A stretch of DNA of 42,579 bases, from positions 1 through 42,579 of the forward strand of contig JAWCKG010000016.1 in assembly GCA_038852285.1 (NCBI GenBank), read 5' to 3'. Each line of letters begins with the position of its first letter. Position 1 is the first letter of the stretch. The notes under the pieces are model-generated. The model had not been told where the DNA came from. It did not search any database and saw only the letters and a program-made list of their open reading frames with translations. Source of the DNA: Candidatus Bathyarchaeia archaeon (lineage in GTDB: Archaea > Thermoproteota > Bathyarchaeia > 40CM-2-53-6 > DTGE01). Positions 22,956-40,810 of this stretch are shown here, piece after piece. The translations under genes were made by a program, and so were the position numbers.

Positions 22956-24092
22956 CTAGTTGATTTTTATGGGGTATTCGCCATGCTTTCGAGCGTAGTC
23001 GTACATGGCTACTATCTTCTCAGGGGAGGAGTCGGCTTGGAGATTGTGGGATGAGGCGAGTATGTAGCCTCCGCCAGGCGCTAGGGCCTTAATTTTTCCC
23101 TTAACCTCCTGCTCAACATCCTCCAACGTTCCTAGAGAGGACATGACTCGCTGAACGTCGATTCCTCCGTGAAAGCATATTTTCTCCCCGAACTCTTCCT
23201 TCAGGGATTCGGGGTCCATGCCCTCCGCTAGGGGTTGAATCGGGTTGAGGATGTCAACCCCTATCTCTATTAAGTCATTTATGATGGGCCTTATGGCTCC
23301 GCAGCTATGGAAGAATATTTTAACGTTAGGCGCTTTCCCCTTAATGAAGCTGTAAAGCCTCTTCAGCCTTGGCTTAAAGATTTTCCTCCAGTCTTGAGGT
23401 GAAATTAGCATGCCCCTTTGATGTCCTGAATCTAACGATGTTCCGTAGATTATTTGAACGTATTCGCCGACCTCGCCTAGAAAGTTATCGTAGAAGCCCA
23501 TGAGCAGCTCACACATTTTATCCATGTAGGCTTCCACAACTCTAGGGTTTAACTTGAGGTTGAGGAGGAAACTTTTCATCCCCATTAAACAAAGGCCTGG
23601 GTCAAACATGTCCATGGAAGGCAGCATTGGAAAACCCATAACGGCGTAACCGGTTTCCTCAAATAACCTCCTAGCATCCCTTCTTAAACCCTCAGTTCTC
23701 CCAGGCGCGTAGGGGTCCGGGTAAGGGTAATCTTCAACATCTTCCACCTCCACCGCCCCTGCTAGGGGGTAATGGATTATCTCATAGTATTCACCGATAA
23801 CCTTAAACCTTCTACCCCACTCATCCTCCAAGACTCCCCCTGGAAGCCTCCTGGGAACCCAGCCCTTAGGACGTTTAAAATAGACTCTACGAACATCTAT
23901 GTGAAGCCTCTCTAAAACCCTCTCGCAAACCTTTAAGGGCTCAACCCAGCCCCACTTCACCACATCCTCATCCTGAACCCCTAAATAACGCTTAACGTTA
24001 AGGTAAGCGGTTGGCGTTATGAACAGGTCCAGAGGAACCCTATCAGGCTCCCTATGCTCAACAACGTCGAGAACACGATCCCTAGGCCTCAT
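22956..24092 (-). CDS. Uroporphyrinogen-decarboxylase-fold protein (MtaA/CmuA-like methyltransferase)
   Basis: About 378 residues from ATG 24092 (MRPRDRVLDVVEHREPDRVPLD, the usual start of this family); ATG 24140 gives 16 more. FFHSCGAI near the middle of the C-terminal half is the HxC zinc-ligand motif of methylcobamide:thiol methyltransferases. ASSHNLQADSSPEKI is the conserved C-terminal block. True haem-pathway UroD lacks the HxC motif, so a corrinoid-linked methyl transfer or O-demethylation role is more likely. It is divergent from the epimerase gene at 24368, sharing a 276-base promoter region. The substrate is unknown. Confidence 0.8.
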   Translation of the reverse strand: MRPRDRVLDVVEHREPDRVPLDLFITPTAYLNVKRYLGVQDEDVVKWGWVEPLKVCERVLERLHIDVRRVYFKRPKGWVPRRLPGGVLEDEWGRRFKVIGEYYEIIHYPLAGAVEVEDVEDYPYPDPYAPGRTEGLRRDARRLFEETGYAVMGFPMLPSMDMFDPGLCLMGMKSFLLNLKLNPRVVEAYMDKMCELLMGFYDNFLGEVGEYVQIIYGTSLDSGHQRGMLISPQDWRKIFKPRLKRLYSFIKGKAPNVKIFFHSCGAIRPIINDLIEIGVDILNPIQPLAEGMDPESLKEEFGEKICFHGGIDVQRVMSSLGTLEDVEQEVKGKIKALAPGGGYILASSHNLQADSSPEKIVAMYDYARKHGEYPIKIN

Positions 24093-24367
24093 AAACTTCA
24101 CGCCCCTAAGGCAAGTCGCCTCTAAACTCTTAACTTTCATTTAGTATTTGAAATCTCACCGGTTAGATCGTAAATTCTTGTTAGCTAAGTTTCTCAGAGT
24201 CCACGTCCTCCCGATAATATTTTATTAAGAATATTTCTATAAAAGGTTCGCTCCCGCTAAGTGCATATTCGTTCGAAACGTGCATTAATTGAATGTATCG
24301 ATAGGGTTAAAAACATGATCTAAAAACATTAATGATGCGCGTCGTTTAGACCGCGTTGGGAAGTTGA

Positions 24368-29970: not shown

Positions 29971-30249
29971 ATGACTTTAGGCTTCATCATACTGTATAGA
30001 TTGAAGGAGTTAACCTCGGATCAGGCGAATATGGCGAGGCAGAGGTGGAGTAAATTTAAGTCCGAGATGTGGCCGAGCGACGTTAAACTGGTGGGCGAGT
30101 ATGGGCACGCCTACGGAAGCGATTACAATGGCTTCTTAATAGTGGAGGCCCCTACGTTCGAAAAATTTCGGGAATTTCACTTGAAGTTCAGGGATTACAC
30201 GAGATGGTACGTTCAATCCACTAGAACCATCACCGGAGTCAAGGAATAA
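29971..30249 (+). CDS. Small DUF3303-like protein
   Basis: 92 residues: GFIILYRLKEL, WSKFKSEMWPSDVKLVGEYGH, FLIVEAPTFEKFREF. The alternation of strands and helices suggests a ferredoxin-like/dimeric alpha-beta barrel fold typical of DUF3303-type proteins. No catalytic residue is evident. ATG 29971 follows GGGAGCG. It stands between two minus-strand genes on its own promoter region. The function is unknown. Confidence 0.65.
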   Translation: MTLGFIILYRLKELTSDQANMARQRWSKFKSEMWPSDVKLVGEYGHAYGSDYNGFLIVEAPTFEKFREFHLKFRDYTRWYVQSTRTITGVKE

Positions 30250-30406: not shown

Positions 30407-32299
30407 TTACTGGGTCTTGAACCCCAGCTTGCTTAAGAGCTCTTTTGTTTTAGGATATTTTTCCAAGCTCTTATATGGGAGATACATGCTTTTCACGTAT
30501 TCTTCTAGGAACATAGGGTGAGTCGCCAACTCGATGAACGTAGCTTTAGCCGATATTCGCTCCGCCTCAAGTCTCTCGTCGATGTTCAGCAAGGCGAGTT
30601 TGGCTCCGCTTCCAGCCGCGTTTCCTATGGGCACGATCCTCTCCAAATCCACTTCTGGTAACATGCCAATCGTCCTAGCGTTTTCAGGGTCGATGTACGA
30701 GCCGAAGGCGCCTGCTAAAAAGATCTTGTCAACATCCTCCTCTCGCAACTTTAAGTGGTTTAGCAGTATGGTTGTGGCGGCGTGGATGGCGGCTTTCGCC
30801 TTAACGATTTCATTGATGTCCCCTTGCGTGATGACTATGTCCTTGCCGATTCCCGTTTTCTCCGCTAGAGCGACCACTAATTCATATCCTTCATCCCCCT
30901 TTCGAACGTGGTTCGACTCTAACGCGTTAAACCCTGATCTATGGTTCAATATTCCCGCTTTCATCATCTCAGCGATCGCGTCGACGTATCCGGAGCCGCA
31001 GATCCCTACCGGTGGTTGATCTCCGATGGTTCGATACATAACTTCTAAGGTTTCTGGGTCAATGGAGATTCGTTCGATGGCGCCGGCGGCGGCTGTCATC
31101 CCCCATTTTGTAGCCCAACCCTCAAACGCCGGCCCGGATGGGGCGCTGGTGACCGTTAAACCCAACTCTCTTTGGCCGCAGTCTATCTCAGTATTCGTCC
31201 CTATGTCTAACGATAAGGTAGGGTTCTCAGCGTCCGCTATCCTAGTGACGAGGCATACGGCCACGTTGTCAGCTCCTACGAAGCTCTTGACTGTTGGAAG
31301 CGCGTGAAGGTAGCCGCTTCGATTTATCCGTAACCCAACATTCTCCGAGGGAACTGTGAACGATCGCCGTAGGACCTGGGTGTAAGGGCTTTGCGACAAA
31401 TACCTTGTTTCCAAGTTTAAGAGGAAGTGATGCATGACCGTGTTGCCGACAACAACCGCTTCATAGACTTTCGCCTCACCTATCCCCACGCTTTCACACG
31501 CCTCATGGACCAGCTTGTTTAAAGCCTCAACCACCACTTCATGGAGCTTTTGAAGGTTTTCAGGCGCTCTGTTGGCGTACGTCATCCTAGTCATAATGTC
31601 TTCTCCAAACGCTCTTTGAGGATTCTCCATGGAGGCTGTGGCCAGCTCCTCGCCGTCGATGAGGCTTAAAAGGTAGAGGGCAATCTTCGTTGTTCCCACG
31701 TCCACCGCCACTCCGAACCCCTCCTTAGAGGTGTCCCCCGCTTCGATGTCGACTACCTCTTTACCCCATACCACAGCGGTTAACCTCCAGTCGCCTTCAC
31801 GAAGAGTCGCCGGAAGCTTTCTGAGGGCGTTTAACCCGATGGAAACCTCACTTAAACCATACTCGCTCCTTAACGTTTCTAGAAGCCTCTCTTCGTCGGA
31901 TCTCTGATCTTCAAGACACGCGAAAGGAACGTGAACGTAATATTTTCTAACCATCGGCTTCAACGGAGCCTCCACTATTACCCCTTCTGTTTGAAGCCTC
32001 ATCCTCCCCCTCCTGCTGGAGGGGAGTATGTAAACCTCCATGTCGCTTCGCGGTTTAACCATGCACGCTAAACGGTAGCCTCTCTCAATTTCATCGTTGC
32101 TAAGAATCCTCCGTTCTCTAGGCGTAGGGGGAGGTACCCCGCCATCGCTTACAATTATCTTTACCTTACATTTTCCGCATACTCCTCTACCGCCGCAAAT
32201 GGACTCAACGGCCACGCCTCCCTTCAAGGCGGCGTCGAGGAGGCTTCCCCTTTCGATGAAAACGGTTACCTCAGAGGGCTTAAACGTTATTTTCCACAT
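30407..32299 (-). CDS. RACo-type corrinoid protein activator (2Fe-2S and ASKHA domains)
   Basis: 630 residues. The N-terminal [2Fe-2S] ferredoxin domain has Cys35, Cys41, Cys44 and Cys79 in CGGRGVCGKC and RLACM. The linker is followed by an ASKHA ATPase (DUF4445) with FGVAVDVGTTKIALYLL, LSLDIGTNTEI, GICGSGYVDA and FLAGAFGSYI. Such proteins use ATP to reduce accidentally oxidised Co(II) corrinoid back to Co(I), restarting methyl transfer. The corrinoid protein gene lies upstream on the same strand (34409-35098). ATG 32299 overlaps by one base the stop of the upstream 91-aa ORF. Confidence 0.92.
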   Translation of the reverse strand: MWKITFKPSEVTVFIERGSLLDAALKGGVAVESICGGRGVCGKCKVKIIVSDGGVPPPTPRERRILSNDEIERGYRLACMVKPRSDMEVYILPSSRRGRMRLQTEGVIVEAPLKPMVRKYYVHVPFACLEDQRSDEERLLETLRSEYGLSEVSIGLNALRKLPATLREGDWRLTAVVWGKEVVDIEAGDTSKEGFGVAVDVGTTKIALYLLSLIDGEELATASMENPQRAFGEDIMTRMTYANRAPENLQKLHEVVVEALNKLVHEACESVGIGEAKVYEAVVVGNTVMHHFLLNLETRYLSQSPYTQVLRRSFTVPSENVGLRINRSGYLHALPTVKSFVGADNVAVCLVTRIADAENPTLSLDIGTNTEIDCGQRELGLTVTSAPSGPAFEGWATKWGMTAAAGAIERISIDPETLEVMYRTIGDQPPVGICGSGYVDAIAEMMKAGILNHRSGFNALESNHVRKGDEGYELVVALAEKTGIGKDIVITQGDINEIVKAKAAIHAATTILLNHLKLREEDVDKIFLAGAFGSYIDPENARTIGMLPEVDLERIVPIGNAAGSGAKLALLNIDERLEAERISAKATFIELATHPMFLEEYVKSMYLPYKSLEKYPKTKELLSKLGFKTQ

Positions 32300-32574
32300 T
32301 ACTTAACCATCCAACGGTTATTCAAGATCTCGTAAGATTGAGTGTAAAATACGTCTCTAGGAACCCTTAAGGCTTCTTCAGGGGTTTCGAAGATCGGTAT
32401 TCTTCCTCTATGAAACTGTAACATAAATTCATAGGTGATTATTGGATGGGTTGCCACCCTAAGCTCCCCGCCTTCGCCCTCTAAACATTCGTTTGCCCTA
32501 TGGGTTATTTCACCCGTCGCCTTCGCCGTTAGAGCGCAGATATCAACGATCACTGTTCTAGGCGTTTTTCCCAA
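32299..32574 (-). pseudogene. Truncated PIN-domain (VapC-like) toxin gene
   Basis: A 91-residue frame from TTG 32574. It has TVIVDICALTA (first PIN Asp), a short helix region and ATHPIITYEFMLQFHRGRIP, in which Tyr-Glu matches the conserved PIN Glu. The C-terminal half with the remaining acidic residues is absent; the frame ends DVFYTQSYEILNN. VapC toxins are normally about 130 residues. It follows an AbrB-like antitoxin gene, the usual partner. The stop overlaps the RACo start by one base (TAATG). It is probably an inactive remnant. Confidence 0.5.
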
Positions 32575-32621
32575 AGCCTTCTCATCCTCATCTGACTTCC
32601 TCTCAACGTTTTCAGCTGTAG

Positions 32622-32788
32622 TTAAGCCCTTTGCACAGCCATGGAACTTCTCCCAACCTGCTCCTTCACCAGATTAATGGCCCAATCTTTCAGGGAAATC
32701 TTTAACACATCTCCATTCGCGATGCACCTTCATCCCTAACCTCTTTAGGGATAACTATCGTTTCCCGGGAACCCACCTTGACTTTCAA
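32622..32788 (-). pseudogene. Frameshifted AbrB/VapB-type antitoxin
   Basis: From TTG 32788 the frame reads KVKVGSRETIVIPKEVRDEG, the swapped-hairpin AbrB signature (normally VGxxGQIxIPKExR). A one-base shift near 32727 is then needed to reach ANGDVLKISLKDWAINLV and QRA before the stop at 32622. The length of 167 bases is not a multiple of three. TATA-like AAAATATAAAT lies near 32822-32836, so it may still be transcribed. Confidence 0.65.
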
Positions 32789-33203
32789 GTTTTCAACATA
32801 TCAAACAGGATGATAAAATTAGATTTATATTTTTATCCGATAAAATTTCCTTCAATCCTTCAAAACCCCCTGATCAGAGGCTGGCTAAGCAACAGCCACC
32901 TGAATTTTAACATATTAGACAGGCCTCTAAAACTTGTTGAAGACGCTCAGCTTGGATGACACGCGCGTCTCCCGACCACCACTGCGCGGTAAACTCTCGC
33001 GTCCATTAACCTATTCCCCCCCACATTCTTCGCATTAACGCTGCTCGCCAGCCTACTGCCCACTAAAAGTTAAGACAGGCCCTAAACCTCTTAAAGGGGC
33101 TCTATCCATCATTTTCTCAGGCTATTTAGACCATATTTTGATCCGAAGCCTTTCAGCCAGCCCTATCTTTTTAACAGGATGAGGCCTTAAAGCAGAGGAT
33201 GGT
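32789..33203. other. Gene-free stretch between methyltransferase and AbrB remnant
   Basis: The right part holds nothing I recognise. The left part (about 32815-32840) has an AT-rich stretch that reads AAAAATATAAAT on the minus strand, a plausible promoter for the AbrB/PIN/RACo unit. This means RACo need not be co-transcribed with the corrinoid genes. Confidence 0.45.
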
Positions 33204-34412
33204 TCACAGGGATATGGGATATTTTCCGTAGGTTCTAGCGGCTTCCACCATCGCCCTCACGTTTTCAACAGGGGTATACCCTCCCACCTCGCAGGGCGTC
33301 ATGACCACGGCGGTGGTGTAGGGCGTTGTATGCTTGATAAACGTTTTAACCATATCCCTCACCTCGCCGGGCGTTCCATGCATTAACAGCTGCGTGGTTG
33401 GGGAGCTCATGGCGCACCTCCTACCCTTACACAGCTTGGCGACCCATTCATACCATTCAGGCCACGACATCTTGTATTGGCTCATGGGGGTGTCGAATTG
33501 AATTGCCTTTACGCCAGGGGCCTTGGTGGCTAAGAACTCCAGGGTTTCCTTCAGGTTGCGTCCACATACGTGCCAGAATAGGTTTTTAAAAATCCGCCTC
33601 GCCTTTTCAAGGTAAATCTCCTCGTACTCCCCGAATTCCTGCCACTGCTTCGGCCCCCAGGTCCTCCCCCCACCCCACGCGCAGAAGAATTCGCACCCAC
33701 GCTTCGCCGCGAATTCTCTATAACCGTCTAAGCTGGCCAGCCTTTCCTGCAAAACAAGGTCAAAGTAGTCGTGGAGTTTCTGTTTCGGCTCTGTGATGAG
33801 CCATTTCACGAGCCTCTGCACCTCCACCACGGTTTCAGCGTGGTTGGAAACGGTGGCTGACCCCGTTATCACAGGGATAGAATTGTTCATTTTGTTTTGA
33901 AACTCCAGCAGTTGCTGGCAATGCGGTATGAAATAGTCTCCCGCATGTCCATAGCCATATTTTTCCCAGACCTTTTCTTGAAAAAGCTTGATCGCGTCGT
34001 CTAAGGTTGTGGCTGCTGGTTTAAATACTACGTAGTCCCTTGGCCCTCTAATCACGTAGTGGTCCTTTCTCTTTTCAGGTGGAATAAGTGGGTCAAGTTC
34101 CTCTGAAAGGTCAACGTATTGCCAAATCGCGTCCCACCTGAACTCGGCCCAAGTCTTGATCAAGGCGTGGGTTCTCTTAGCCACCGCATCTGGGCCTTCA
34201 AAGATCTCCCACGCGGTGTATCCCTGGTAATAGCATGGCCAGTAATCAGCCTCTGGGGCTAATGGAACCATGTCAGGCTCCTCTAAGTTGAAGGCTTTCT
34301 CCATCCTCTCCCAATGTGTCATCTCGCCGATGTTCTCTACGCCTCTAAGTATGCGGGCCCATTCATCGACTGAGAGTGGTTTCCCGCTTACCGAGGCCGC
34401 CTTTTCGCTCAT
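33204..34412 (-). CDS. Uroporphyrinogen-decarboxylase-fold methyltransferase (corrinoid partner)
   Basis: 402 residues from ATG 34412 (MSEKAAS), which overlaps the upstream corrinoid gene's stop in ATGA; a longer open frame reaches 34484 but would sit deep in that gene. FWHVCGRN near residue 270 is the HxC zinc-ligand motif that activates a methyl acceptor or substrate. GEMTHWERMEKAF is the family N-terminus and MTPCEVGGYTPVENVRAM the C-terminal conserved block. Overlap with the corrinoid protein strongly suggests they act as a methyltransferase/corrinoid pair. The direction (substrate to Co(I), or methyl-Co to acceptor) and the substrate are unknown. Confidence 0.85.
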   Translation of the reverse strand: MSEKAASVSGKPLSVDEWARILRGVENIGEMTHWERMEKAFNLEEPDMVPLAPEADYWPCYYQGYTAWEIFEGPDAVAKRTHALIKTWAEFRWDAIWQYVDLSEELDPLIPPEKRKDHYVIRGPRDYVVFKPAATTLDDAIKLFQEKVWEKYGYGHAGDYFIPHCQQLLEFQNKMNNSIPVITGSATVSNHAETVVEVQRLVKWLITEPKQKLHDYFDLVLQERLASLDGYREFAAKRGCEFFCAWGGGRTWGPKQWQEFGEYEEIYLEKARRIFKNLFWHVCGRNLKETLEFLATKAPGVKAIQFDTPMSQYKMSWPEWYEWVAKLCKGRRCAMSSPTTQLLMHGTPGEVRDMVKTFIKHTTPYTTAVVMTPCEVGGYTPVENVRAMVEAARTYGKYPISL

Positions 34413-35098
34413 AGGGTTTTCAACCCGAGTTTTTCCTTCATGAGTTTTTTCATCTCCTCGGCAGCCACCCAAGCGTCGTCCCAAGCCCCATCGGCTCCGA
34501 ACTCAACTGCCTTCCTATAGTTTACCGCCGGGCCTCCGCAAACCACGATGACCTTATCCCGCAGCCCAGCGTTTTTTAACGCCTCAACCACCTTCGGAGT
34601 GTTATAAAATGTTTCACTCATATAGGTTCCAATTCCCACGATGCTCGCGTTATGCTCTTTTACTGCTTCAACGTATTTTCTGGATGGAACCTCAACTCCT
34701 AAGTCGATTACTTTTAACCCGATTTCAGCCGCGAAAACCGCTTTAGCGACATCTTTTCCCACGGTGTGGACGTCTCCATATATGGTGCCGATGACCATAA
34801 CTCCGGTGAACGGTTGCTCGCCCTTCCTCGCCTCCAACGATGGTCCAAGGGCCTCCATGCCAGCGTAGAACGCGTCCGCCGCGACTAAGACCTCTGGCAT
34901 AAAAACCTCCATTTTATTCCATTTTTCACCGATTATCCGCATACCCTCGGCTAACGCTCGAATCGCCTCAGCTGGATCCAAATTAGCTTCTAACGCCTCC
35001 TCCGCGGCGTTCCTAGCGGCTTCAGCGTTCAGGGAAACGACCGCGTCAGTCAACTTGGATAGGATGAGCTCTTTTCCCGGGTTTAATCTAACCCCCAT
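34409..35098 (-). CDS. B12-binding corrinoid protein (MtaC/MtbC/MttC-like)
   Basis: 229 residues. The N-terminal four-helix cap (B12-binding_2, about 10-90) has the usual EALGPSL end. The Rossmann B12 domain has DVHTVG at 109-114, where His111 is the lower cobalt ligand (DxHxxG). IGIGTYMSETF and VVCGGPAVN are the later conserved loops. This small corrinoid protein carries the methyl group between two methyltransferases. It overlaps the downstream methyltransferase by four bases and follows a 110-aa protein four bases upstream. Fits of this arrangement are known for methylotrophic and O-demethylase systems. Confidence 0.95.
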   Translation of the reverse strand: MGVRLNPGKELILSKLTDAVVSLNAEAARNAAEEALEANLDPAEAIRALAEGMRIIGEKWNKMEVFMPEVLVAADAFYAGMEALGPSLEARKGEQPFTGVMVIGTIYGDVHTVGKDVAKAVFAAEIGLKVIDLGVEVPSRKYVEAVKEHNASIVGIGTYMSETFYNTPKVVEALKNAGLRDKVIVVCGGPAVNYRKAVEFGADGAWDDAWVAAEEMKKLMKEKLGLKTL

Positions 35099-35102
35099 AA
35101 AA

Positions 35103-35435
35103 TCACTCTCCCAACCATTTTAGAAAGTCTTTCCAAGACCTAAACTCTTTTTTTCCACCGGCGTAAATAACCTCAACCTTACCAACCTTTCGCATCTGAT
35201 CCTCATCGTTTAAAACTTCCTCTGCATCTCTGAACTCTTTAAACTCTGAGGCCTCCCAGAACTTATAGTACTCAGTAATGTCGTCCTTTCCTCTAGCCTT
35301 GGCTTCACCGTTCGATATCCATAAAGCGTCAAGTTCGAAGTCAACTTTCAATTTGGGAGATTCGCTTGTTTTCAGTTCTTTGCGAAGCTTTCTTTCAAGT
35401 TTTTCGGTCAACTCTTTTAAAGTTAAATGGCCCAT
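35103..35435 (-). CDS. 110-residue protein of unknown function heading the corrinoid operon
   Basis: The sequence begins MGHLTLKELTEKLERKLRKELKT, a strongly charged helix. It then has VDFELDALWISNGEAKARGKDD, a second helical acidic part (KFWEASEFKEFRDAEEVL), and ends KVEVIYAGGKKEFRSWKDFL. No Cys and no membrane segment. I do not recognise a family. Its stop is four bases before the corrinoid protein start, so it is almost certainly translated with it. It could be an accessory, chaperone or regulatory subunit. Confidence 0.75.
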   Translation of the reverse strand: MGHLTLKELTEKLERKLRKELKTSESPKLKVDFELDALWISNGEAKARGKDDITEYYKFWEASEFKEFRDAEEVLNDEDQMRKVGKVEVIYAGGKKEFRSWKDFLKWLGE

Positions 35436-35653
35436 AACAGCACCTCCCTAACCAAGTCTCCGCTCCAAGCGAGTTTACAATTTGTGTGCGTTAATGAGGA
35501 TCTGTAATTTTTGTTGCTTTGAGACTATTTAAATCTCTCGATTTGCTTTTCTTCCTCATAGATTGGAAGGCTGTTGATTATAGGCCGTCAGGTATGAAGA
35601 GCTTCTTTTAATCCTAGCCTCTACTGAAGGCTATGGTGACGAGCTTCTATGAA

Positions 35654-36280: not shown

Positions 36281-37909
36281 TTATTCGTGGGTCAAGATGT
36301 ATGTTTCAGTTAATACTGGGTCTTTTTCAACCTCCTTAAGCTCTTTTAAACATTTTTCCCTTTCAACCAGGTCTTCTATTTCTTGGATTTTTTTCACGTC
36401 TTGTATTAATAATCTGTTAAGCGCCACGTTTTTCAACTCCAATTCAGTTACTCTTTCAGATAACTTACCATACTTCCCCTTCAATGTGACTAAACGCTCA
36501 ATGGAGTCTAAAATTAAGTTACTCACCTCGTTCACGTCGAAGTGTTCTGTTTCATAGTTTATCCAGTCAACCCATATCGGCTTTTCTGCGGCCTGATAAT
36601 GGGAAAATAATGTACGACTTCTCATTCTGTATCCAACTTTATCCGGGTTGTAGAAGGCTATTGAGCCTGGATCCAAGATAACCATTGGACCGTACTCAAT
36701 GTCGATCCAATCGCTTTTAAAGCTGAAAATCCTATCCCAAAGCTTCCATGTGAGTTTAACGGTTTCCATAGTTTCATGGGCTAATACTCCCATGAAGAAA
36801 AAGGTGATGGGTAAGTCTAGTTTAAGACATGATTTAGCTGTTTCGATTATGGATTCATTTGTGTAATCTCTACCATGCGCCTGCCTTACATGGTCAACTC
36901 CGGATTCAGGGGACATTGTTAACGCTACTTTATCCGCTGGCTTAAACCGATGCAAGGTTTTAATGAATTCAAGATTTGGAGGTTTGAAGAGCTCCAGGGT
37001 TACATGCTCAATTTTCGACCACCGCTGCGCGCTTAAGATTTTAAACATGTTTTTCCAGTAGTCGTCTCCCCCCATTCTTACGTCTTGGAACAGAAAAACA
37101 GAGTTAAAACCCTGCTCATCCAAACGCTGGAAGTCTTCTAGGATTTTTTCTGAGCTTCTAAACGCGGGCTGTGTTCTCGAGAAGAGTTTTTTGTATGAGT
37201 ACGCTGATCCACCGCACGTCACACAGTTGAATAAGCATCCTCTACATATGGGGAGTTGCCATACCTTCAGCCTTTTGCTCCCCATTTGAGCGTGGTGTGT
37301 TTGAGTCGGAGGCTCTATTAAATCGGTTCTCGTAAACTCATAGTTGTCTAAGCTTTCCGGCGGAGCCACCACCGCATTGACTTTAACCTTCCCATACCTA
37401 TTCCTATACGTTATATTTGGCACGTCATCGAGCTCACATTTCTCAACTCCTTGCTTTAATTTCGCTAAGGCTTCCTCGCTTTCACCCCGTACAACGGCGT
37501 CGACGTAAGGAAACTTTTGAATGATTTCCTCATTAAAGCATGTGGCAGTTAACCCTCCTAGCACTAAAAAGCTGTCTGGGTGAACCTTCTTGCATATTCT
37601 AGCAAGCTCTAACGCTCCCTGTACATGAACGCACCAATGGAGATCTATGCCGAAGATTTTTGCGTCAACCTCCTCAAGGTAGCCTTCTAGGTTAAACTTC
37701 GGGTTAAGTAGCATTCTCTCACCAACGTTCACTATCTTAACATCGTATCCTATTCTATCCAGGAAATCAGCGATGCTTATCAAACCGATTGGAAAAGCCG
37801 TGAAAACGGGCGTTGATCTAACAGTTCTCGCTATAGGACCTGGAAACCACGGCTTCTCCCTAAAATCTATTAGACTCGGCGGGTGGAGGAATATGAAATC
37901 TTTTCCCAA
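36281..37909 (-). CDS. Cobalamin-binding-domain radical SAM enzyme
   Basis: 542 residues. The N-terminal Rossmann B12-like domain (about 1-150) has FPIGLISIADFLDRIGYDV, GIDLHWCVHVQGALE and VLGGLTATCF. The radical SAM core (about 215-440) has CLFNCVTC, with Cys225, Cys229 and Cys232 as CxxxCxxC. A C-terminal helical tail (about 470-542, KLSERVTELELKN) looks like a coiled coil. Members of this class methylate unactivated carbons or do other radical chemistry with cobalamin. TTG 37909 is the likely start. It lies alone between transposase remnants. The substrate is unknown. Confidence 0.85.
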   Translation of the reverse strand: MGKDFIFLHPPSLIDFREKPWFPGPIARTVRSTPVFTAFPIGLISIADFLDRIGYDVKIVNVGERMLLNPKFNLEGYLEEVDAKIFGIDLHWCVHVQGALELARICKKVHPDSFLVLGGLTATCFNEEIIQKFPYVDAVVRGESEEALAKLKQGVEKCELDDVPNITYRNRYGKVKVNAVVAPPESLDNYEFTRTDLIEPPTQTHHAQMGSKRLKVWQLPICRGCLFNCVTCGGSAYSYKKLFSRTQPAFRSSEKILEDFQRLDEQGFNSVFLFQDVRMGGDDYWKNMFKILSAQRWSKIEHVTLELFKPPNLEFIKTLHRFKPADKVALTMSPESGVDHVRQAHGRDYTNESIIETAKSCLKLDLPITFFFMGVLAHETMETVKLTWKLWDRIFSFKSDWIDIEYGPMVILDPGSIAFYNPDKVGYRMRSRTLFSHYQAAEKPIWVDWINYETEHFDVNEVSNLILDSIERLVTLKGKYGKLSERVTELELKNVALNRLLIQDVKKIQEIEDLVEREKCLKELKEVEKDPVLTETYILTHE

Positions 37910-39739: not shown

Positions 39740-40810
39740 ATGAGATCAGCTAAACGCATACTACGGGAAAGACTCAAAATGGCTAAGAGTTCGCTTGAAA
39801 GGTGCTTGGAGGCGTTTGACGGAGAATCGGATCGGATCCCTTTCGCGCCTTTTATAATGCACTTCGCCGCTGAGCTTCTTTCAATCGATTATTCTTCACA
39901 ATATTGTCAAAATTATAATTATGTTGTCGAGGGTCAGATCAAATGCTGGAAAAATTTTGACCTAGATGTTGTATGCGTTTCCACAGATGCTTATAGGGAG
40001 GCTGAAGGATGGGGCGTTAAGGTCTCATACGATATGCACACGCCTTATCCAGTAAGGCAGCTGGACATAGGGAGTTTCGACTCCGTGGAGGCCCCAGAAG
40101 TCATGTCGGGGAGAATGCTGGATAGAATAAGAGCAGTGGAGAAGTTGTCTCGATCGCACGGAAGTGAAGTTCTAGTCATAGGCTGGATCGAAGCCCCGTT
40201 CGCCGAGCTATGCTGCCTATTCGGAGTTTATCAAACGTTGCTGTTGGCGAGGAGAAACCCCGCTCTGCTGAGGAGAATACTAGATAGAGTTGTTAAAGTC
40301 CAAGAAGAATTCGCCAAGGCGCAGATAGAGGCTGGAGCGCACGTGATAGGCGCTGGGGACTCGATCATCTCGCAGATAGGACCTGGTGAGTACAAAAGGA
40401 CCGCTCTCGACACGACGAGAAAGCTATTCCATGCCTTGAAAGTCCCTGTGCTGTACCACTGTTGTGGGGACAATTCAATCGTCAATAAAGATGGAGACAT
40501 GTTGAAGTTAATTGCTAGCAGTGGCGCGAAGATAATAGACATAGACACCCAGGTGAACCTAAAGGTCGCGAAAGAGAAGATCGGTGAATGCTGCATCAGA
40601 GGAAACGTGAATACCACAATATTAGGCGATCCTATGGCTACCACAGAAGCTATTTTTGACGCCTGCAAAGAGTCTGTAGAAACAGGCAAGATTAACGGAA
40701 GATATATGTTCGCAGCGGGCTGCGAATGGCCTTGGAGGCCTCTGAACATTGTATCAAGAAATCTAGGGATAGCGAAAGCAATAGTCTTGGCTTATGGAAC
40801 TTATGCATGA
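39740..40810 (+). CDS. Uroporphyrinogen-decarboxylase-fold protein, methyltransferase-like
   Basis: 356 residues. ATG 39740 or ATG 39779 (MAKSSLERCLEAF). SDRIPFAPFIMHFAAELL is the family N-terminus. LYHCCGDN near residue 236 is the HxC zinc-ligand site. FAAGCEWPWRP near 330 is the C-terminal block with the additional Cys. These features fit methylcobamide-dependent methyltransferases over haem-pathway UroD. It is followed on the same strand by an epimerase-like gene, but a decayed transposase segment lies between them. The partner corrinoid protein may be the one at 34.4 kb. Confidence 0.8.
   Translation: MRSAKRILRERLKMAKSSLERCLEAFDGESDRIPFAPFIMHFAAELLSIDYSSQYCQNYNYVVEGQIKCWKNFDLDVVCVSTDAYREAEGWGVKVSYDMHTPYPVRQLDIGSFDSVEAPEVMSGRMLDRIRAVEKLSRSHGSEVLVIGWIEAPFAELCCLFGVYQTLLLARRNPALLRRILDRVVKVQEEFAKAQIEAGAHVIGAGDSIISQIGPGEYKRTALDTTRKLFHALKVPVLYHCCGDNSIVNKDGDMLKLIASSGAKIIDIDTQVNLKVAKEKIGECCIRGNVNTTILGDPMATTEAIFDACKESVETGKINGRYMFAAGCEWPWRPLNIVSRNLGIAKAIVLAYGTYA

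Follow-up and report, generated by a model that had tools for sequence, protein, structure and literature searches.

Organization of the gene cluster

The window, by which we mean the whole 42,579-nucleotide stretch of Candidatus Bathyarchaeia DNA analysed here, carries a reverse-strand operon of four genes, encoding an orphan protein of 110 aa, a corrinoid protein (CP), a URO-D superfamily methyltransferase (MT) and a RACo-type reductive activase (Table 1). The first three are tightly packed: a gap of 4 bases (35099-35102) separates the 110-aa gene from the CP gene, and the ATG of the MT gene sits in the end of the CP gene with an overlap of 4 bases. The RACo gene follows less closely, with 905 bases between it and the MT gene. 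The preliminary description, made from the sequence alone, had recognized a packed corrinoid methyl-transfer unit with a RACo activator further down, and both the ORF coordinates and the domain content bear this out. Pfam models identify B12-binding and B12-binding_2 domains in CP, a URO-D domain in MT (35.9 bits against a cut-off of 23.9) and a complete RACo architecture of linker, middle and C-terminal domains plus Fer2 (PF14574, 287 bits). The NCBIfam models agree with Pfam, CP and MT falling under every curated cut-off there. The activase has the features that define RACo, namely a Fer2 domain with a C-x5-C-x2-C pattern together with linker, middle and ASKHA domains.

Table 1. Features of the corrinoid methyl-transfer operon and of the insertion within it (positions in the window).
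Feature	Position	Strand	Basis and remarks
TATA-like box TTTAAATA	35526..35533	-	98 bases 5' of the ATG of the 110-aa gene; consensus match only
110-aa orphan protein	35103..35435	-	operon gene 1; ORF list
Corrinoid protein (CP), MttC/MtbC-like	34409..35098	-	PF02310 + PF02607; B12 motif DVHTVG
Zinc-type corrinoid methyltransferase (MT), URO-D superfamily, 402 aa	33204..34412	-	PF01208; probable MT1
Broken MazE/AbrB-type antitoxin fragment	32705..32797	-	PF04014, E = 3.6e-4, below curated cut-off
91-aa ORF	32299..32574	-	no family match; between MT and RACo
RACo-type reductive activase	30407..32299	-	Pfam; 2Fe-2S cysteines C35, C41, C44

In the sister genus the spacing between MT and RACo is only ∼150 bases, compared with 905 in the window, where the interval contains the MazE-type fragment, lying in another frame than its apparent continuation, and then the 91-aa ORF. 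Positions 32299-32797 are probably the relics of a toxin-antitoxin pair, now decayed, which set RACo apart from the other operon genes, with the 91-aa ORF possibly a remnant of the partner toxin gene. Two further genes flank the operon: just upstream and on the same strand is a TIGR04190-type B12-binding radical SAM protein (36281-37909; 408.6 bits against a cut-off of 500), and convergent to RACo is a 92-aa protein that matches DUF3303 below threshold (29971-30249).

A conserved operon in a second genus and the methyl acceptor

A sister genus of the same family (L006, L008) has the genes in the order MtrH (divergent), 110-aa protein, CP, MT and RACo, and Pfam confirms that the gene adjoining the 110-aa gene there is MtrH. 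The earlier statement that no methyl acceptor gene is adjacent stands locally, the window having no MtrH, but not for the wider picture: the genome has a single MtrH on another contig (C27), and in the sister genus MtrH lies directly beside the 110-aa gene. The acceptor is thus probably supplied in trans by the MtrH of the other contig, whose neighbourhood also encodes an MttB/MttC pair and a URO-D protein. In this pair (L010:5585-10419) the MttB frame stays open for 507 aa and so has no in-frame pyrrolysine codon; it is possibly of the glycine-betaine/non-Pyl kind.

Window and sister genomes each have exactly one RACo, found in this operon both times. Given that B12-binding_2 domains occur at four places in the window genome, along with seven URO-D proteins, its single RACo probably serves several systems, the other corrinoid proteins of the genome included. 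CdhC/ACS is present in both genomes; for the window genome, CdhC together with MtrH points to an archaeal origin. In each genome two CdhC/ACS-beta genes lie ∼4 kb apart (L039 and L040 on G000:C10; L038 and L041 on G001:C1), with open frames of ∼475 and 700-736 aa, i.e. of archaeal-like and bacterial-like lengths.

A lineage-restricted 110-aa protein

We consider the 110-aa ORF a real gene, because it has a good ribosome-binding site (GGAGG) and the TATA-like box, because a 48% identical frame occupies the same operon place in the second genus, and because the substitutions between the two favour third codon positions (39, 40 and 75 at codon positions 1, 2 and 3, respectively). It is the fastest evolving among the four operon genes (window versus sister dN of 0.48, compared with 0.38 for RACo, 0.25 for CP and 0.16 for MT; dS is saturated).

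A search among 60 relatives returned one good match, in the family's one other genus represented. Beyond this sister genus, no relative was found in the 257 genomes of the class and no credible one in a phylum sample of 398 genomes, where three short matches (L042-L044) were dismissed, two lying inside long unrelated frames and one running across a stop, with an E-value equal to the chance expectation for 398 genomes. A weak match in another genome (L007 in G056) overlaps an antitoxin-like frame and was likewise attributed to chance. Nothing was found by an exact-pattern scan of 85,000 species genomes, in plasmids, in viral contigs, or in six bacterial genomes carrying the MT, including their CP-MT operons. 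Searches of Pfam, NCBIfam and PDB sequences gave no match, and those of PHROGs gave only chance-level ones (E of 0.05 or worse). An AlphaFold2 model (pLDDT 81, pTM 0.72; shallow, as it was built from two sequences) predicts an N-terminal helix, beta strands and a C-terminal helix. A PH-like fold was rejected (best PDB fold match E = 0.19, TM 0.27), and comparison with a viral fold library yielded nothing credible. The absence of a known family, as first described, is upheld by all of these searches.

The preliminary description had proposed the protein as a possible new component, to be judged by its co-occurrence with corrinoid proteins and doubted if homologous operons lacked it. The two archaeal operons show this co-occurrence, whereas no bacterial CP-MT operon does; the gene is thus missing from homologous operons in bacteria, but not from the sole other archaeal operon found. 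Its absence from bacterial operons with orthologous CP and MT argues against a general component, and judging from sequence we regard it as a lineage-restricted accessory and not as a core part of CP-MT systems. Most likely it would bind CP or the CP-MT pair, in protection, assembly or substrate gating. A precedent for a lineage-restricted small protein binding a corrinoid methyltransferase is MtrI of Methanosarcina, which binds Mtr via its cobamide under oxygen; MtrI, however, is a helical protein of 68 aa encoded by a stand-alone gene and acting on the membrane Mtr complex (PMC12774963). We found no sequence relation between the two.

It is possible, though we are inclined to doubt it, that the 110-aa protein is a chance neighbour, a small regulator or stress protein sharing the promoter, which would be compatible with the Mto-like system proposed below. 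Its absence from every bacterial CP-MT operon, its rapid evolution and its occurrence in two genomes only are what this would predict, but the gene stays first, directly before CP, in two genera while the surroundings (MtrH, antitoxin remnant) changed, and no DNA-binding family was found for it. The protein offers a testable candidate for small proteins that assist soluble corrinoid methyltransferases.

An unassigned URO-D subfamily with an MtaA-type zinc site

The preliminary description had allowed that the methyltransferase might lack zinc ligands on alignment, and this concern can be set aside: H281, C283 and C374 of MT (METHYLTRANSFERASE) are invariant in 8/8 MT sequences aligned, and they align with the H-x-C...C ligands of MtaA (4AY7); the MT model, too, finds its best fold match in 4AY7 (E = 2e-11). 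MT is 79% identical between window and sister genus; its identity to the remaining URO-D proteins in the comparison is just 16-20%. Membership of the MtaA/CmuA family was rejected on its score (37.3 bits against a cut-off of 235.4 for TIGR01463). In the PDB, phmmer reached a single sequence, CdmB (9RUI, E = 2e-6), and membership of that family was rejected as well, because MT keeps the zinc ligands and CdmB is zinc-free.

Among the class genomes and the phylum sample, no genome outside its own family has this MT. Outside the family, the nearest relatives of MT (50-56% identity) come from Planctomycetota and Acidobacteriota, and the genome collection yielded five Planctomycetota loci and one Bryobacteraceae (Acidobacteriota) locus at 51-54% identity. 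The subfamily is sparse, since in 294 genomes from the phylum of one bacterial carrier (L028) the only match was in that carrier's own genome. Its sequence features place MT in a little-known, unassigned URO-D subfamily with an MtaA-type zinc triad.

The CP-MT pair in bacteria

In each bacterial locus with the MT, a CP gene precedes it. The CP of the window shares 43-46% identity with the complete CPs of the bacterial units, compared with 34-35% for two other CPs of the window genome. It has the motif DxH(T/S)VG in common with the bacterial unit CPs, where the own-genome CPs instead have DxHDIG. CP and MT are therefore co-inherited as a pair. A Met_synt_B12-type protein, in RACo's stead, follows the pair in four bacterial loci (L029-L032, Planctomycetota/Bryobacteraceae). 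In the Planctomycetota locus L030 (4266-7892), a homocysteine S-methyltransferase stands before CP, then MT and the Met_synt_B12 protein; in L029 (5321-8811), a canonical MtaA-like URO-D protein comes after MT.

Although the loci are few, the L030 set may be a methionine synthase (MetH) in pieces, its pterin domain replaced by MT, and these few loci also suggest that MT1 and CP form one donor-side pair, to which different acceptor and reactivation modules can be joined. The pair is seen with two reactivation modules (RACo and Met_synt_B12) and with three kinds of possible acceptor (MtrH, MtaA-like protein and homocysteine S-methyltransferase), and this variety of partners turns the nature of its donor into a question that can be defined biochemically.

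A probable Mto-like corrinoid methyltransferase system

Because MtrH, a URO-D MT, CP and RACo occur together in an ACS-containing genome, the composition is of the Mto type, and we consider it probable that the window operon is a Mto-like corrinoid methyltransferase system with the URO-D MT as MT1, MtrH as acceptor, RACo for reactivation and the 110-aa protein as accessory. We infer the direction of methyl transfer, the acceptor and the partner of the 110-aa protein as follows. The zinc MT would bind a methylated donor and move its methyl group to Co(I) of CP, giving CH3-Co(III)-CP; an MtrH-type methyltransferase would hand the methyl on from CP to a tetrahydropterin of the H4MPT type, from which it may reach acetyl-CoA synthase (ACS); RACo, using ATP and an electron of low potential, would return Co(II) corrinoid to Co(I); and the 110-aa protein, whose gene leads the shared transcript, would act as a lineage-specific accessory on CP or CP-MT. 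The leading candidates for the donor are methoxylated aromatics or methyl-sulfur compounds; which methylated compounds anaerobes can use is decided by the substrate-specific enzyme in a given corrinoid system.

The conserved second-genus operon speaks for the Mto-like system, and the joining of homocysteine S-methyltransferase, CP, MT and Met_synt_B12 protein in L030 for the MT1 direction. The low score of MT against the MtaA/CmuA model and the lack of MtrH in the window speak against it, as does the high dN of the 110-aa gene. The known MtoABCD systems of Methermicoccus shengliensis and Archaeoglobus fulgidus likewise combine an MtrH-like acceptor, a URO-D MT1, a CP and a RACo-type activase (PMC8630106, PMC8359953), and the sister genus has all four components in one cluster; in Methermicoccus shengliensis, MtoA is MtrH-like and transfer to the pterin is supported by assay (PMC8630106). 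In contrast, the window cluster is without MtrH and without an MFS transporter and has the extra 110-aa gene, and neither a transporter nor an aromatic-degradation gene lies beside the unit, in which it differs from the mto cluster of A. fulgidus, against whose MtoABCD the published Mto criterion is set (at least 35% identity; PMC8359953). MT and MtoB apparently belong to distinct subfamilies, and the likeness to Mto is drawn from gene composition.

A more far-reaching reading, which we hold to be rather unlikely as a whole, is that the 110-aa protein represents a novel, dedicated subunit binding CP or the CP-MT complex, that the MT subfamily demethylates a substrate outside all known corrinoid systems, and that this CP-MT pair has, in bacteria, taken the place of the pterin domain in a methionine synthase that was split up.

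MtaA-type zinc activates the thiol acceptor. The URO-D MT could accordingly be an MT2 that, as MtaA does, transfers methyl from methyl-CP to a thiol (CoM or homocysteine), the donor enzyme lying elsewhere; in both its zinc triad and its best fold match it agrees with MtaA. We nevertheless judge this quite unlikely, because an MtrH-type acceptor is already present in the sister operon, because bacterial loci can have separate acceptors beside MT (the homocysteine S-methyltransferase of L030 and the MtaA-like protein of L029), and because MT, for all its likeness in fold and H-x-C...C ligands to the soluble CoM methyltransferases MtaA/MtbA, scores so far under the MtaA cut-off at a length of about 402 aa.

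That the operon encodes a dehalogenation system for chloromethane or a similar haloalkane, like CdmBCA of Acetobacterium dehalogenans, is highly improbable. CdmBCA also joins a URO-D MT1 to a separate corrinoid protein, and CdmB is the one weak PDB sequence match of MT, but this chloromethane methyltransferase works without zinc, its third ligand Cys missing in the alignment where 8/8 relatives here keep it, so that the zinc ligands of MT argue against a CdmB-like reaction. The acceptor in that system, CdmA, is a tetrahydrofolate methyltransferase (PMC13222342).

Besides the Mto-like systems, type 1 mlp clusters bring together a URO-D protein, a CP and a RACo-type activase, often with the acceptor gene missing, but each such cluster has two or three MtaA-like proteins (Mlp1-3; PMC10418091). 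The defining arrangement of Mlp2 and Mlp3 beside CP is not found here, the unit having one URO-D protein, far from MtaA. Two other URO-D proteins are encoded in the window. One (39740-40810), on the other strand and 4.3 kb from the operon, has a complete H-x-C...C set and is MtaA-like but below the cut-off; the other (22956-24140) has the H-x-C, and a His aligns where the third zinc ligand, Cys, would be.
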